64,000 nucleotides of DNA, taken from the NCBI GenBank assembly GCA_016780065.1, contig JADHML010000002.1:1-64000 (forward strand), read 5' to 3'. A program made the translations under genes and the position numbers. The stretch is from Flavobacteriaceae bacterium (GTDB lineage Bacteria > Bacteroidota > Bacteroidia > Flavobacteriales > Flavobacteriaceae). How positions within the stretch are numbered: position 1 is the first letter of the stretch; each line of letters starts with the position of its first letter. The notes under the pieces are model-generated. The model was given only the letters and a program-made list of their open reading frames with translations, searched no databases and was not told the origin of the DNA. Below, one piece after another: positions 35,584 to 43,315 of this stretch.

Positions 35584-37386
35584 CTAAAAGCAGTATTGAT
35601 TTTCAGCAGTGATACGTTCTGCTACCTGATTGCGTAGCGCAATCACATTGGGTGGGTTTACGTACTTGGTAAACCGCTTCAGACCCATAAGCAGCATTTT
35701 TTGTTCATCCCCCTCAGCCGCCGATACAATCGCTTCTTTTCCTTTGGTGTTGATTTTTTCAACAGCTTGGAAAAGGTATAGTTGCGTCATGGCTATTTGA
35801 AGTTTTTGGGATTCTTCCCCATTTCTATCCACATTCTTTTCAGTGCGTAAAAGGGCAGATTCTACCATATAGATTTCAATAAGAATATCGGCTACGGCCA
35901 AAAGAAGTTGTTGGTGCTCCTCAAGCTCATTGCCATATTTTTGAACTCCTGCACCTGCAATCATCAAAAAGACTTTTTTTAGGTTTTTGAGAATGTGTTT
36001 TTCTTCGGCAAACAGTGCAGAATAGTCAGGGGTTTCAAACGAAGGAATACCCATCAGTTCTTCACCTACAGCTGTTGCAGGGCCTATAAGGTCAAGATGG
36101 CCTTTCATAGCTTTTTTAATCAGCATTCCTACCGACAGCATACGGTTGATTTCGTTGGTTCCCTCATAAATTCGGGCAATGCGCGCATCACGCCACGCAG
36201 CTTCCATAGGCGTGTCTGCCGAATAACCCATGCCCCCAAAGATTTGGATACCTTCATCGGTGCAGTCTTGGGTGTGTTCAGAAACAATGACTTTTAAAAT
36301 AGAACATTCTATGACATATTCTTCAACTCCTTTGAGTTCGGCTTCTTGATGGTTGTTACCTGCAGCTACACGAAGAGCTATACGGTCTTCAATGTCTTTG
36401 GCTGCTCGGTAGCAAGCGGACTCATCTACATAGCAATTCATGGCCATGTTTGCCAGCTTTTGTTTGATAGCTCCAAACTGGCTGATGGGTTGTTTAAATT
36501 GTATTCTGTCATTGGCATAGCGCACAGCTTCTGTGGTGGTGCGTCGTTGGGCATCTAAACAAGCAGCTGCAAGTTTGATACGGCCTATATTGAGCGCATT
36601 CATTGCAATTTTAAATCCGTTGCCACGTTCTGAAAGCATGTTTTCTACAGGTACTTTGGTTTCGCTAAAAAACACTTGTCGGGTTGAAGATGCATGAATA
36701 CCCAGTTTGTGCTCTTCTTCCCCCATAGATATACCATTTTCAGGGTTGTTTGGAACGATAAAACCGGTAATGTTTTTATCATCTTCAATACGAGCAAAAA
36801 CAATCATTAAGTCTGCATAGCCCGCATTGGAGATCCAAATCTTTTGTCCACTGATTAGGTAATGTGTACCGTCTTCAGACAATACCGCTTTGGTCTTTCC
36901 ACTGTTGGCGTCAGAGCCTGCTCCAGGTTCGGTTAAGCAATAACATCCGATCCATTCCCCAGAAGCAAGTTTAGGTACATATTGCTTTTTTTGTGCTTCG
37001 TTGCCATACATCACAATGGGCATGATACCAATACCAGTGTGCGCACCATACGCAGTAGAAAGTGAACCCGATGCCCCAGAAAAATAATCACATACGAGCA
37101 TGGTGGACACAAATCCCATATCCATACCTCCATAAGCTTCTGGCACAGCAACACTCAGAAAACCAAGTTCACCAGCCTTTCGCATCAGTTCAAAAGTAAA
37201 ATCGTAATCTTTCTTTTCGAATCTATGTTTGTTTGGCCAAACTTCACGGTCTACAAATTCTTTCACCGCATCGCGCATCATACGTTGCTCCTCGCTGAAG
37301 TCTTCTGGGGTAAAAACATTCTCAGCTTCAGTTTCTTGTAACAAGAAAGCACCTCCGCGTGTCAGATTTTTTTCTTTAGTTTCCAT
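35584..37386 (-). CDS. fadE: Acyl-CoA dehydrogenase, FadE type
   Basis: Flavoenzyme for the first step of fatty-acid beta-oxidation. The 600 residues comprise the usual dehydrogenase core (about 25-430: CLTEPGAGSDANSGKTKA, QIFGGMGYSADTPMEAAWRD, and the catalytic Glu in RIYEGTNEINRM) plus a C-terminal helical extension of about 150 residues. The length and gene order match FadE of the B. subtilis fadNAE operon rather than short acyl-CoA dehydrogenases. It is the last gene of the MarR-fadN-fadA-fadE run, 9 bases after the thiolase gene. Confidence 0.9.
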   Translation of the reverse strand: METKEKNLTRGGAFLLQETEAENVFTPEDFSEEQRMMRDAVKEFVDREVWPNKHRFEKKDYDFTFELMRKAGELGFLSVAVPEAYGGMDMGFVSTMLVCDYFSGASGSLSTAYGAHTGIGIMPIVMYGNEAQKKQYVPKLASGEWIGCYCLTEPGAGSDANSGKTKAVLSEDGTHYLISGQKIWISNAGYADLMIVFARIEDDKNITGFIVPNNPENGISMGEEEHKLGIHASSTRQVFFSETKVPVENMLSERGNGFKIAMNALNIGRIKLAAACLDAQRRTTTEAVRYANDRIQFKQPISQFGAIKQKLANMAMNCYVDESACYRAAKDIEDRIALRVAAGNNHQEAELKGVEEYVIECSILKVIVSEHTQDCTDEGIQIFGGMGYSADTPMEAAWRDARIARIYEGTNEINRMLSVGMLIKKAMKGHLDLIGPATAVGEELMGIPSFETPDYSALFAEEKHILKNLKKVFLMIAGAGVQKYGNELEEHQQLLLAVADILIEIYMVESALLRTEKNVDRNGEESQKLQIAMTQLYLFQAVEKINTKGKEAIVSAAEGDEQKMLLMGLKRFTKYVNPPNVIALRNQVAERITAENQYCF

Positions 37387-37395
37387 AGGTTTTAA

Positions 37396-38577
37396 TTATA
37401 AGAGTTCATAAATTCCGGCAGCCCCTTGCCCTGTTCCTACACACATGGTAACCATTCCGTACTTCTGTTTTCTAACGCGCATTTCATCAAAGAGCTGTAC
37501 CGAAAGTTTGGCTCCTGTACAGCCCAATGGGTGGCCTAGCGCAATGGCTCCACCGTTTACATTAACGATTTCTGGATTGATGTCCAACTCTCGAATTACT
37601 GCCAAAGACTGAGCAGCAAAGGCTTCGTTTAGCTCTATCAACTCAATATCTTTAAGTTTAAGATTGGCCTGTTTTAATGCTTTAGGTATGGCCTTCACAG
37701 GGCCAATACCCATGAGCCTTGGCGGCACACCCGCTGTGGCGTAACTGACCAATCGAGCAATGGGTGTCAAGTTGTGTTTTTTTACCATTTCCTCATCCAT
37801 GAGCATCAATACAGCAGCTCCATCACTCATCTGTGAGGAATTTCCAGCTGTAACAGATCCTTTTTGAGCAAAAACTGGACGTAATTTAGATAACGCTTCT
37901 ATACTGGTGTCTGCTCGGGGACCTTCGTCGCGATCAACTGTATAGCTACGTTTGGCTTTTTTACCCGATTTGTCTAAATACGTTTCTTCAATTTTTATGG
38001 GTACTATCTGTTGGTCAAAACTTCCAGAAGTTTGCGCTTTGAGTGCTTTTTGATGTGATTGGTAAGAAAACACATCTTGGTCTTCACGCGATATGTTGTA
38101 TTCATTGGCCACGGCCTCTGCAGTGAGTCCCATCCCCCAATAATAGTCTTCTTTTCCTTCTGCGGCTAGTTTATAATCGGGTGAGGGTTTATAACCACCC
38201 ATCGGAATTAGGCTCATGCTTTCCGAACCCCCTGCGATGACACAACTTCCCATCCCAGATTGTATTTTGGCTGCTGCCATGGCAATGGTTTCTATTCCTG
38301 AAGCACAATACCTGTTGACGGTCACACCAGGGACCTCATCACTTTTGAGCCCCATTAGGGATATCAAACGTGCCATGTTGAGCCCTTGTTCGGCTTCTGG
38401 CATGGCGTTGCCGATGATGACATCATCAATAAGGGCTGGATCCATTTCTGGAAGGGTTGTCATAAGGTGTTCAATGGTCTCTGCGGCAAGTTCGTCCGGA
38501 CGTTTAAACCTAAACAGCCCTCTGGGTGCTTTTCCCACAGCGGTTCTAAATCCACGTACGATATAAGCTGTTTTCAT
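37396..38577 (-). CDS. fadA: Acetyl-CoA acyltransferase (3-ketoacyl-CoA thiolase)
   Basis: Last step of beta-oxidation: thiolytic cleavage of 3-ketoacyl-CoA. I start it at ATG 38577 ([16 protein letters not shown]), giving 393 residues; a TTG two codons earlier is unlikely. The nucleophile is Cys91 in [14 protein letters not shown]. The other catalytic residues are the His in [17 protein letters not shown] and the Cys in [13 protein letters not shown]. It sits between the fadN-like and fadE-like genes with gaps of 2 and 9 bases. Confidence 0.95.
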
Positions 38578-38579
38578 AA

Positions 38580-40988
38580 TCAATTTCTTAAAGGTTTGCC
38601 AGTTTTTAACATATGTTGAATCCGCTCGAGTGTTTTACGCTCTGTGCATAGAGACAAAAATGCTTCACGCTCTATGTCTAGAAGGTATTGTTCACTAACT
38701 CTAGTAGGTTGTGAGAGATCTCCACCAGCCATTACATAGGCCAGTTTATTCGCTATTTTTTTATCGTGTTCACTAATGTAGTTACCAGCTTGCATGGCAT
38801 CCGTACCCACTAAAAACATTCCCAAGGCTTGTTTGCCCAATACTTTTATGTCTTTTCGCATGATGGGTTTTGTGTACCCAGTTTCCGCCATAAGCAAAGC
38901 GTGTTGTTTTGCAATGGCCAATTGTTGTTGGTTTTGGGTTACTACAAGGTCTTTTCCTTTTTGTAGAATACCATAATCAAAAGCTTCATAAGCCGATTTG
39001 GCAACTTTGGCCATGCCTATGGTCAAGAAATATTCCTGTAGCACGTTGAGCTCTACATCATTTTTTCTAAATGAGTCAGCAGCTCTAAGTGTCATTTCTT
39101 TAGAACCACCCCCACCAGGGATAACACCCACCCCAAACTCCACCAACCCAATGTATGTCTCCGCAGCAGCTACCACTTTATCTGCGTGGAGGCACAATTC
39201 ACATCCACCCCCAAGAGTGAGTGTGTGAGGGGCTGCTACTGTCGGGATAGAAGAATAACGCATGCGCATCATTGTGTCTTGAAAATACTTGATCGCCATG
39301 TTGAGTTCGTCGTATTCTTGTTCAACAGCCATCATAAAAATCATACCAATATTGGCACCAGCTGAAAAGTTGGCACCTTGGTTGCCAACCACCAATGCTT
39401 GAAATTCTTTTTCAGCCAAATCCACCCCTCTATTCAGACCCTGAAGCACTCCACCTCCGATGGTGTTCATTTTTGAGTGAAATTCAACATTAAGCACTCC
39501 GTCTCCTAGGTCGATTAAAGAACATTCATCGTTTTTCCAAACAGTTTGAGTTTTCCTGCTATTGTCTAAGATCAAAAAGCTCTCTTGCCCAGGGATCACA
39601 ATCAGCTTCTTGTTGGGAATGTCATAATAGTGACGATTACCATCATTTAAACTGTAGAAACGAGCTTGCTCACTTGATGCCAATTCAACCACCCAATCAG
39701 AAACTTTGTGTCCAGCCTCTTCAATGAGTTTCATACCTTTTTTGATTCCTACAGCATCCCATATTTCAAAAGGCCCATGGGACCATCCAAAACCAGCTTT
39801 CATGGCATCATCGATGCGGTAGAGTTCGTCAGATATTTCAGGGATGCGGTATTGTACATAAGCGAATAGTTCACCAAAGTTTTTTCGGTAAAAAGCTCCT
39901 GCTTTGTCAGTACCTTCTATCAAAACAGTGTATCTGTCTTCGAGATTATCGATAGACTTAGTTTTATCGAGAGTGGCAAACTGCGCTCTTTTTTTCTTTC
40001 TATAATCCATGGAATCTAAATCCAAAGTCAGGATTTCAGAACTCCCATCATTATTTTTTGATTTTTTATAAAACCCTTGCCCGCTTTTAGATCCCAACCA
40101 TTGATTGTCCATCATTGTTTGAATAAAATCGGGTAATTCAAACACATTTCGTCTCTCATCCTTTGAGCAATGTTTGTGCAGGCCATTGGCCACATGAACA
40201 AGTGTGTCTAGTCCTACCACATCAACCGTTCGAAATGTTGCCGATTTTGGTCTACCGATGACAGGCCCTGTGAGTTTGTCAATTTCTTCAATAGTGAGCC
40301 CCATATCTTTGACTTGATGAAACAGGCTTTGAATGCAAAAGATTCCGATCCTGTTTCCAATAAATGCGGGTGTGTCTTTGGCTAAAACAGATTGTTTGCC
40401 TAAGTAACGAGTGCCATAATCTATTAAAAATGCTGTTACTTCAGCACTGCATTTTGGTCCAGGAACAACTTCGAAAAGTTTGAGATAACGTGGTGGGTTG
40501 AAGAAATGTGTTACAGCAAAATGTTTTTGAAAATCTTCAGACCTGCCTTCATTCATCAGTGCAATTGGTATCCCCGAAGTGTTTGATGTGACTAGGGTTC
40601 CAGATTTTCTGTGCTGCTCAATACGTTCGAAGATTTGTTGCTTGATGTCTAGGCGCTCGACGACCACCTCTATGATCCAATCCACCTCAGCAATACTAAC
40701 GATGTCGTCTTCTAGGTTTCCAGTGGATATGCGATTTGCAAATTTGTTGTGATAGAGTGGTGCAGGGTTGCTTTTTATGGCATTATTTAAGTTGTTGTTG
40801 ACAATTCTGTTTCGTACTAGATGATCATCTAGAGTCAATCCTTTTTGAGATTCTTTTTCGTTGATTTTTGAAGGGATTATATCAAGTAATAGAACTTCGA
40901 CTCCAATGTTGGCAAAATGACACGCAATACCAGAGCCCATAATTCCTGAGCCGATCACAGCTACCTTGTTAATTTTTCGATTTTTCAT
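38580..40988 (-). CDS. fadN: 3-hydroxyacyl-CoA dehydrogenase / enoyl-CoA hydratase, FadN-like
   Basis: Bifunctional beta-oxidation enzyme of 802 residues. The NAD-binding dehydrogenase comes first (GSGIMG at 13-18, then TSNTSGIPI and THFFNPPRYLKLFE). The crotonase domain is in the C-terminal half (GANFSAGANIGMI, then LTLGGGCELCLHAD and GLVEFGVGVIPGGGG). This is the reverse of the E. coli FadB order and the same as B. subtilis FadN. The crotonase glutamate position in GLVEFGVGVIPGGGGSKE is retained. Its ATG overlaps the marR stop by one base. Confidence 0.9.
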   Translation of the reverse strand: MKNRKINKVAVIGSGIMGSGIACHFANIGVEVLLLDIIPSKINEKESQKGLTLDDHLVRNRIVNNNLNNAIKSNPAPLYHNKFANRISTGNLEDDIVSIAEVDWIIEVVVERLDIKQQIFERIEQHRKSGTLVTSNTSGIPIALMNEGRSEDFQKHFAVTHFFNPPRYLKLFEVVPGPKCSAEVTAFLIDYGTRYLGKQSVLAKDTPAFIGNRIGIFCIQSLFHQVKDMGLTIEEIDKLTGPVIGRPKSATFRTVDVVGLDTLVHVANGLHKHCSKDERRNVFELPDFIQTMMDNQWLGSKSGQGFYKKSKNNDGSSEILTLDLDSMDYRKKKRAQFATLDKTKSIDNLEDRYTVLIEGTDKAGAFYRKNFGELFAYVQYRIPEISDELYRIDDAMKAGFGWSHGPFEIWDAVGIKKGMKLIEEAGHKVSDWVVELASSEQARFYSLNDGNRHYYDIPNKKLIVIPGQESFLILDNSRKTQTVWKNDECSLIDLGDGVLNVEFHSKMNTIGGGVLQGLNRGVDLAEKEFQALVVGNQGANFSAGANIGMIFMMAVEQEYDELNMAIKYFQDTMMRMRYSSIPTVAAPHTLTLGGGCELCLHADKVVAAAETYIGLVEFGVGVIPGGGGSKEMTLRAADSFRKNDVELNVLQEYFLTIGMAKVAKSAYEAFDYGILQKGKDLVVTQNQQQLAIAKQHALLMAETGYTKPIMRKDIKVLGKQALGMFLVGTDAMQAGNYISEHDKKIANKLAYVMAGGDLSQPTRVSEQYLLDIEREAFLSLCTERKTLERIQHMLKTGKPLRN

Positions 40989-41440
40989 TAGGCGCTCATT
41001 TCTTTTAGTGTGAAGGTGCTTTTGTCTTCCAACTTGCTCATGATGACATCGGCAACTTTGTGAAAAGCTTTTAATTCACTTTCAGTGATTGTTTTTTCTA
41101 TGGCTTGGTTGAATTTTTTGACAAGAGATTTTGACAATTTTCTTTTTTCTAAGCCTTCTTGAGTCAGTTTTATAAGCACACCACGCCCGTCTTCAGGATT
41201 GGGCTCTCGACGAACTAAACCCTTTTCCTCCATAGACTTCAATGTTCTGGACAGACTGGTGGCCTCCATGCCCATTCTTGGGCCTAGTGATGTGGAAGGA
41301 ACACCATCCTCAGCATCGATACTCAACAGCGCCAGTCCTGTTGCCATGGTAGCACCATATTTAGCGGCTTCTTCATTGTACATTTTAGCTACGGCCTGCC
41401 ATGTAGCCCGAAGAACATGATCTATAGTTTGGTATTGCAT
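40988..41440 (-). CDS. MarR-family transcriptional regulator of the fad operon
   Basis: Winged-helix regulator of 150 residues, first gene of the beta-oxidation operon. The DNA-binding region is around residues 48-100 (SLGPRMGMEATSLSRTLKSMEEKGLVRREPNPEDGRGVLIKLTQEG), with the recognition helix and the acidic-arginine wing (DGRG). No cysteine-based sensor motif is seen; a fatty acyl-CoA or fatty acid ligand is likely from context. Immediately upstream is a perfect 26-bp palindrome, a good candidate for its own binding site, so the operon is probably autoregulated. Confidence 0.88.
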   Translation of the reverse strand: MQYQTIDHVLRATWQAVAKMYNEEAAKYGATMATGLALLSIDAEDGVPSTSLGPRMGMEATSLSRTLKSMEEKGLVRREPNPEDGRGVLIKLTQEGLEKRKLSKSLVKKFNQAIEKTITESELKAFHKVADVIMSKLEDKSTFTLKEMSA

Positions 41441-41444
41441 GCCT

Positions 41445-41452
41445 CAAATGTA
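41445..41452 (-). promoter_or_regulatory. marR-fad operon promoter, predicted leaderless
   Basis: On the minus strand TACATTTG (41452-41445), a full -7 match, ends 4 bases before the ATG at 41440, the same spacing as at 34528-34535. The palindrome at 41457-41482 covers the space between this box and the expected -33 site. Confidence 0.6.
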
Positions 41453-41456
41453 TAAA

Positions 41457-41482
41457 AAAATACTATGCGCGCATAGTATTTT
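41457..41482. promoter_or_regulatory. Perfect 26-bp palindrome, candidate MarR operator
   Basis: AAAA-TACTATGCG joined to CGCATAGTA-TTTT, a flawless inverted repeat centred between 41469 and 41470. It lies between the acyl-CoA synthetase stop and the marR -7 box, so a bound dimer would block RNA polymerase. The minus-strand T run that follows means it could also act as a hairpin terminator for the synthetase gene (TACTATG-CGCG-CATAGTA). Both roles are possible at once. Confidence 0.7.
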
Positions 41483-41498: not shown

Positions 41499-43268
41499 CT
41501 ATTTATATATCCTTTCGATCAAGTGGTTGTATTTATTTGAGATAATCTTTCTTCGAAGTTTCATAGTAGGGGTGAGGTGGCCAGAGTCAACACTCCAAAC
41601 ATCGGGGGTTAAGAGAATTTTTTTAACTTTTTCCCACTGAGCAAATTGTTCGTTGGCTATATCAACTTCAGATTTTATTTTATCAATCACCTTATTGTCA
41701 GAAGACATTTCTTCAAGGCTTAGTTCCTTATCCCCATTTTCTTTCAGCCATGTGTTTAGAGCATCCGTGTTTGGCTCGATCAAGGCCGAAGGGTGTTTTT
41801 GTCCTTCACCTATTACCATTACTTGTTCAATAAATATTGACTGCTTAATCACATTTTCAATCACCTGGGGTGCAACATATTTACCTCCCGATGTTTTAAA
41901 CATTTCCTTTTTTCTATCGGTGATTTTTAAAAACCCATCTTCATCAATGTGCCCAATATCACCAGTATGGAAGTATCCATCTTTGATAACTTCCTTAGTT
42001 TTTTCTTGATCTTTGTAGTAGCCCATCATCACATTAGATCCTTTACAAAGAATCTCTCCGTCAGGGGCAATTTTAACTTCTACTTTATCAATCACTCTGC
42101 CCACTGTTCCAATTCGGTAGTTGCCATCTCGTAAGTCATTAACTGAAATCACAGGCGATGTTTCGGTGAGTCCATATCCTTCACAAACAGCCATGCCAGC
42201 AGCAGTAAAGACACGGGCGAGTCGTGGTTGGAGCGCGGCACTACCTGATGCAATTAGTTCCAAATTACCACCAAGAGCTGCTTTCCATTTTTTAAAAATC
42301 AATTTTCTTGCGATTTTTAATTTGAGCTCATAGATCCAACCATTTTGTCCGTAGGGTTCATATTGTAAACCCAAATCTACCGCCCAATTGAATAGTTTTT
42401 TCTTCAACCCAGTGAGGGTTTGTCCTTTGCTATAGATACGATCGTAAAGTTTTTCCAAAAGGCGAGGTACAGCTGTCATCACATTTGGATGCACTTCATT
42501 AAGGTTTTCTCCGATTGTCTCTAGAGACTCAGCAAAATATACTCGGGTTCCGGAAAGTGTATATAGATAAATGAGCATACGCTCATAGATATGACATAAG
42601 GGTAAAAAGCTCAAAGCAACCGCTTTGCCTTGTTCCAAAGGTAGGCGCTGTTGGCTGGCTAAAGCATTGGAAACAATATTGTGATGACTGAGCATCACCC
42701 CTTTTGGAGTACCTGTTGTTCCCGAAGTATAAATAATGGTCGCTAGATCTTGTGGACGTACAGACTCCATGATGGCCTGTATTCTGGGTTGATGACTTGT
42801 TTCGCCACCTAACTCTAATACTTCGCTCCAATGCGCACAACCATCTATTTTGTCGAAACTGTAAACCTGTTCTAGTTTTGGACATTGTTCCCGAATCGAA
42901 ACAATTTTATCATATACTTCTTGATCAGAAACAAAACAATATTTGGATTCTGAGTGATTGAGGATATATGCATAGTCTTCTGCTGTAATGGTAGGGTAGA
43001 TGGGCACGTCGACGGCACCTAATTGTAAAACACCAATATCTACAATACACCATTCTGTACGGTTGTTAGTTGAAATGAGTGCTATTTTATCGCCCTTGCG
43101 TACGCCTAGCTCCAACAATCCTCTACTTATTTGATTGGCTTTTGCCAAATATTCTTCACTTGATGTGTGCTCCCATACTCCATCAATCTTAGTGTTTAGG
43201 GCACAATCAATAGGGTTTGAGCGCACTCTGTGATGAAGGATGTCAAATAGGCGAGATGGTGTGCTCAT
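41499..43268 (-). CDS. Long-chain acyl-CoA synthetase (AMP-forming)
   Basis: Activates fatty acids to acyl-CoA. I start at ATG 43268 (MSTPSRLFDILHHRV), giving 589 residues, because the upstream ATG at 43298 would put the -7 box inside the gene. AMP-binding motifs: IIYTSGTTGTPKGVMLSH (about 179-196), GYGLTETSPVIS and YFHTGDIGHIDEDGFLKITDRKKEMFKTSGGKYVAP. It resembles the long eukaryote-like FadD15 group of synthetases. It lies directly upstream of the marR-fadNAE genes in the same direction and so supplies their substrate. Confidence 0.92.
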   Translation of the reverse strand: MSTPSRLFDILHHRVRSNPIDCALNTKIDGVWEHTSSEEYLAKANQISRGLLELGVRKGDKIALISTNNRTEWCIVDIGVLQLGAVDVPIYPTITAEDYAYILNHSESKYCFVSDQEVYDKIVSIREQCPKLEQVYSFDKIDGCAHWSEVLELGGETSHQPRIQAIMESVRPQDLATIIYTSGTTGTPKGVMLSHHNIVSNALASQQRLPLEQGKAVALSFLPLCHIYERMLIYLYTLSGTRVYFAESLETIGENLNEVHPNVMTAVPRLLEKLYDRIYSKGQTLTGLKKKLFNWAVDLGLQYEPYGQNGWIYELKLKIARKLIFKKWKAALGGNLELIASGSAALQPRLARVFTAAGMAVCEGYGLTETSPVISVNDLRDGNYRIGTVGRVIDKVEVKIAPDGEILCKGSNVMMGYYKDQEKTKEVIKDGYFHTGDIGHIDEDGFLKITDRKKEMFKTSGGKYVAPQVIENVIKQSIFIEQVMVIGEGQKHPSALIEPNTDALNTWLKENGDKELSLEEMSSDNKVIDKIKSEVDIANEQFAQWEKVKKILLTPDVWSVDSGHLTPTMKLRRKIISNKYNHLIERIYK

Positions 43269-43287
43269 GCAATTAGTTGTTCCTTCA

Positions 43288-43315
43288 CAAATATGCATTT
43301 ATTTCGGCAAAACAA
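43288..43315 (-). promoter_or_regulatory. Promoter of the acyl-CoA synthetase gene
   Basis: On the minus strand TTG (43315-43313, part of a TTTTTG run), 17 bases, then CATATTTG (43295-43288), the same -7 variant seen before the SusC-like gene. It supports the ATG at 43268 as the start. Confidence 0.5.

Follow-up and report, generated by a model that had tools for sequence, protein, structure and literature searches.

A palindromic site as candidate operator of a MarR-family regulator of beta-oxidation genes in Flavobacteriaceae and related Bacteroidota

The stretch of DNA analysed here (64,000 nucleotides of a contig from a Flavobacteriaceae bacterium, hereafter the window) carries on its minus strand a gene for a MarR-family regulator followed by genes of fatty-acid beta-oxidation, in the order marR-fadN-fadA-fadE that the initial annotation had read from the open reading frames (Table 1). 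The fadE-like protein scores 737 against an NCBIfam cut-off of 600. The best NCBIfam model for the fadN-like protein is Staph_FadB, at 578 against a cut-off of 999, and since the protein falls below this cut-off 'fadN' is a name by analogy. The Pfam MarR domain is found in the regulator with 45.8 bits (cut-off 24.6), and the domain search returned MarR-type domains and related winged helices only, with no GntR or TetR domain. Its predicted structure is a winged helix, and the modelled fold resembles those of DNA-bound SlyA, MepR and FabT. Across 22 aligned MarRs, residues G57 M58 E59 and T61-S62-L63-S64-R65 are invariant.

Table 1. Positions of the genes and promoter features at the marR locus, numbered along the window.
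Feature	Position	Strand	Basis or remark
acyl-CoA dehydrogenase (fadE-like)	35584..37386	-	NCBIfam NF058590 above cut-off
acyl-CoA thiolase (fadA-like)	37396..38583	-	profile matches
fadN-like 3-hydroxyacyl-CoA dehydrogenase / enoyl-CoA hydratase	38580..40988	-	profile matches
marR, MarR-family regulator, 150 aa	40988..41440	-	Pfam MarR E 5.5e-12; winged-helix model pLDDT 89
-7 box TACATTTG, matching the Bacteroidota TAnnTTTG	41445..41452	-	consensus from the available text of PMC6847099
8-nt T-rich spacer, operator heart to -7 box	41453..41460	-	8-10 bp spacing among named relatives
perfect 26-bp palindrome	41457..41482	.	palindrome search and simulated windows
18-bp putative operator heart, consensus TAYTATGCNNGCATARTA	41461..41478	.	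conservation in named and class-level loci
long-chain acyl-CoA ligase, upstream gene, putative operator target at most	41499..43298	-	3' end 16 bp from palindrome

The palindrome upstream of marR is exact over 26 bp, as had been claimed for it, and its arms, AAAATACTATGCG and CGCATAGTATTTT, adjoin without a gap. It is the sole perfect palindrome with arms of at least 9 within the 64 kb, and its arm of 13 is the longest in the window; in simulated controls matched to the window in composition, the longest arm was at most 11 in all 100 Markov-1 windows. Along the minus strand the palindrome is followed by TACATTTG (41452-41445), AGGC and the marR ATG (41440), with 4 bp between palindrome and TAnnTTTG box and 4 nt between the end of the box and marR. 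The location just upstream of a -7 box that the initial annotation described is thus correct, the interval it assigned to the palindrome (41445-41482) taking in the -7 box too.

Conservation of the site before orthologous marR-fad operons, a check proposed in the initial annotation, was found at two levels. The first level comprises 80 named loci, picked by protein and not by site; they are the best of 587 confirmed and come mostly from Flavobacterium. The motif occurs with at most two mismatches within 200 nt before marR in all 80 (41 exact, 24 with one mismatch and 15 with two), and the reversed pattern, serving as control, reached 4-6 mismatches at best. Positions T4 A5 T6, C8, G11 C12 A13 T14 A15 and A18 are invariant in these loci, and G7 is kept in 79. 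An exact TAnnTTTG follows the motif in 77 of the 80, spaced 8-10 bp, one of these having an additional earlier match at 0 besides the match at 8; the remaining three have, on a reading by eye, a one-base variant of the -7 box at 8 bp. The order marR-fadN-fadA-ACAD is present in 73 of the 80 loci and partial in the others. The class-level comparison covers the best 30 marR loci (the window's own included). Within 250 nt, 26 of them carry the core TATGCNNGCATA exactly and two with one mismatch; the other two lack it, one of these having only 150 nt before the contig end. Outside the window's family the exact core is found in 20 of 24 loci, and the reversed core is exact in none of the 30.

Several loci deserve separate mention. 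Within the window's genus, the gap from the end of TACATTTG to the marR ATG is 4-5 nt in nine of nine loci (window 41438-41452; L004-L012), and if transcription began at that distance from the -7 box the marR mRNA would be leaderless. The box ends about 18 nt before the ATG in most named relatives, and across the window TAHHTTTG ends 4 nt before an ATG in only 2 of 48 open reading frames. Tandem sites about 28-29 bp apart were seen in L013 and L019 (both 1419/1447), L132 (3265/3293), L133 (3121/3150), G231 (C1:1617808/1617837) and L275; such pairs stand before marR, one copy being weaker in some, and also before an unlinked fadE, an arrangement that suggests cooperative binding. A marR-fad locus resembling those of Flavobacterium, putative operator included, is also present on a contig labelled Limnohabitans (L186), which is probably misbinned.

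Copies of the core had also been expected before other fad, etf or acyl-CoA genes of the same genome, and a second copy was indeed found before etfBA. In the source-genome assembly (1.02 Mb, 58% complete), the 18-bp heart occurs with at most three mismatches at two places, one being the window and the other 41 bp upstream of etfB, and the reversed pattern at none. The etfBA pair is divergent from pdhB, and the copy sits between them. A search with the core only gave five matches (marR, etfB, a short-chain reductase and two within open reading frames), and the reversed core gave two; the matches on contigs C6 and C15 were set aside because they lie inside open reading frames. The reductase match (L119:3999-4016; G000:C1:29998), a site with two mismatches, has a 2,4-dienoyl-CoA-reductase-like gene 17 nt downstream. 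It is kept in none of nine congeners (best 6-7 mismatches, one congener with only 66 nt of upstream DNA), and at the same looseness the reversed control also gave one match, so that its standing as a third site is doubtful and it may be a recent gain or chance.

We examined the co-occurrence of site and regulator in an order-level set of 99 genomes, with MarR called at E <= 1e-20 and sites at no more than three mismatches from the window's; this set overlaps with the named loci, L139 and L140 corresponding to the congeners G002 and G010. The site is present in 62 of 72 genomes with MarR vs 10 of 27 without, and there are 162 sites in total vs 25 for the reversed pattern. Among 198 genomes of the class, presumably Bacteroidia, 95 have MarR, and at one mismatch 51 have both, 44 MarR only, 15 the site only and 88 neither (p 5e-9, ignoring kinship). 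The etfB loci offer a comparison that is blind to the site, as they were located by protein, one locus per genome, in 88 of the 99 order genomes. Of the 70 genomes with MarR, 54 have a site with at most two mismatches before etfB, vs 5 of the 18 without it (p 1.6e-4, kinship ignored). Four of these five are congeners whose assemblies are 63-78% complete, for which reason MarR may merely be missing from them; when they are set aside, the counts become 1 of 14 without MarR vs 54 of 70 with it (p 1.2e-6, again ignoring kinship). The reversed control, at up to three mismatches, matched in 1 of 88. Exceptions occur in both directions. The etfB site is absent in 16 of 70 MarR genomes, and 44 of 95 MarR genomes of the class have no site within one mismatch, from which we take it that the regulon shifts or the motif drifts. 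The ten order genomes with a site and no detected MarR include G069, with two sites, and G095, with an etfB site; those of G069 match the consensus exactly (L064:3286 and L036:1501), and no orthologue of this MarR was detected in that genome.

Wider targets were surveyed among 145 sites within one mismatch, pooled from the genomes surveyed across order and class; this pool is not an unbiased sample because many of its members were fetched by site. Sixty-seven are near marR, 33 near etfB or pdhB, four near acyl-CoA dehydrogenases and one near fadN, and the other 40 are near genes outside the beta-oxidation pathway or unassigned. G182 and G215 carry the site upstream of fadN and fadE, which lie there on contigs separate from that of marR, and a second, weaker copy stands before the unlinked fadE. 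Recurrent among the other neighbours are nitronate-monooxygenase/FabK-like enzymes (six sites), M3 peptidases (four) and TonB receptors (three), and single cases comprise a FadH/OYE-type flavoenzyme, pyruvate carboxylase and a 4Fe-4S protein. The M3-family oligopeptidases (L042, L070, L076, L084) and TonB-dependent receptors (L082, L092, L103) are neither of them obvious beta-oxidation genes. In one congener an exact-consensus site was also noted 60 nt before an ABC-transporter ATPase gene (L122:3302; G002:C18). Regulon members beyond marR-fad and etf are at this stage suggestive only. On the etfB side, seven congener loci have an exact TAnnTTTG box at 16 bp from the site, and in several other loci a weaker box, read by eye, lies at about 20 bp. 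On the pdhB side an exact box, where present, is 33-54 bp from the site, mostly 41-45, and at this distance pdhB is unproven as a direct target.

Taking these observations together, we propose, with a probability of roughly 0.85, that the palindrome is the operator of an autorepressing MarR that controls the beta-oxidation operon and etfBA, a reading based on sequence comparison. The -7 element of F. johnsoniae spans -12 to -5, 4-5 nt to the start, in the available text of the promoter study (PMC6847099), and with this numbering the site covers about -38 to -21 on marR and -46 to -29 at the etfB of congeners. Lying inside the marR promoter, the operator should deny RNA polymerase access when a dimer is bound, and both positions are compatible with repression by exclusion of polymerase. 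The MarR dimer would dock on the 18-bp TAYTATGCNNGCATARTA, exclude RNA polymerase and repress marR-fadN-fadA-fadE, including its own gene; the same dimer would occupy the second site, upstream of etfBA, whose product probably takes electrons from the acyl-CoA dehydrogenase, and in other lineages might also sit before further acyl-CoA genes. Once fatty acids are taken up and activated, acyl-CoA would bind the dimer and release it from the DNA. That acyl-CoA is the inducer is probable, though a guess, drawn from pathway logic and from F. psychrophilum, in which beta-oxidation genes are strongly up with fish mucus and plasma (PMC9723704, available text); MarR is not mentioned in the main text of that study as available (PMC9723704). 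The operator of a marR-fad operon that the initial annotation put forward is thus supported in part: the second copy, the conservation and the etfB site that tracks MarR speak for it, and the binding of MarR and its release by acyl-CoA or fatty acid are putative.

The palindrome might instead be mainly an intrinsic terminator of the upstream acyl-CoA ligase gene. Its RNA would form a hairpin of -9.4 kcal/mol (z -3.65) followed by a U-run, most named relatives have a T-run after the site (the first four positions being T in 73, 74, 79 and 79 of 80), and the upstream gene has the same orientation in 73 of 80 named loci. The T-run, however, may equally be the AT-rich promoter stretch reported near -18 (PMC6847099, available text), and folding cannot separate operator from terminator use because it follows from palindromy. 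The etfB copy, which lies between divergent genes, also gives a fold on either strand (z -2.0 and -2.4). The hairpin of the one congener folded, L139, is weaker (-6.2, z -1.64) and has no adjoining U-run, and a terminator scan of the window did not have the palindrome among its matches. What favours the operator is that the -7 box keeps a fixed distance of 8-10 bp, whereas the gap to the upstream gene ranges from 18 to 598 (by a crude ORF call), and that the same motif lies between etfB and pdhB, a divergent pair with no gene end in between. We therefore regard a mainly terminating function as extremely unlikely; an additional one alongside the operator is conceivable and would leave the etfB copies and the fixed promoter spacing unexplained.

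It is also very unlikely, in our judgement, that the site is a true MarR site at which MarR activates. The etfB site would suit such a role, being further upstream, at the 16 bp (exact box) and about 20 bp (weaker box) given above. MarR proteins, however, are mostly repressors. At marR's own promoter the site fills -38 to -21 (numbering after the available text of PMC6847099), which fits blocking. Some other regulator could bind the motif, MarR being only its neighbour, as the sites without detected MarR in 10 of 27 order genomes might indicate. Four of these ten exceptions are the incomplete congeners, however, and the distant etfB site is lost along with MarR (1 of 14 vs 54 of 70), which makes this explanation highly improbable and leaves repression by MarR as the preferred reading.

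Bacteroidota are major degraders of organic matter, and for their use of fatty acids the present analysis offers a candidate regulator together with an 18-bp site and a regulon open to testing. No description of the regulon was found in the open-access PMC literature, a scope outside which most subscription papers fall; a search there with the site's letters gave no relevant title among the matches listed, and no paper naming a switch for fatty-acid use in Bacteroidota was found in the open-access literature. As far as that literature shows, what is new and apparently undescribed is that this MarR is paired with this site, plus the reach of the pairing; the regulon would be ordinary in kind and broad in reach. 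It can be speculated, as an unlikely extension, that this regulator is an old master switch of fat burning, class-wide in Bacteroidota, that takes the place of FadR, that the operator between etfBA and pdhB opposes lipid use to pyruvate oxidation, and that the regulon has spread to TonB receptors that maybe import lipids. If this were true, a single operator between the divergent etfBA and pdhB would control both.

MarR proteins that repress their own genes through a palindromic operator are well known. FabT, the MarR-family regulator of Firmicutes, has both fold and lipid metabolism in common with the present protein (TM about 0.72 to the FabT-DNA structure 6jbx), and its targets are fatty-acid synthesis genes, whereas those proposed here are degradation genes; the NCBIfam FabT model scores the regulator below threshold (20.3, the cut-off being 200). 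MarR repressors of the CouR type are released by CoA thioesters and target aromatic-acid genes; the ligand class may be common to CouR and this MarR, the sequence match between them being weak (E 0.0093). In Proteobacteria, beta-oxidation is regulated by FadR of the GntR family and by PsrA and FadP of the TetR family, according to the available text of PMC5343134. Similarly to the arrangement proposed here, these regulators have palindromic sites upstream of several beta-oxidation operons, and the regulator varies by lineage (PMC5343134, available text); they differ in protein family, being GntR or TetR there and MarR here.
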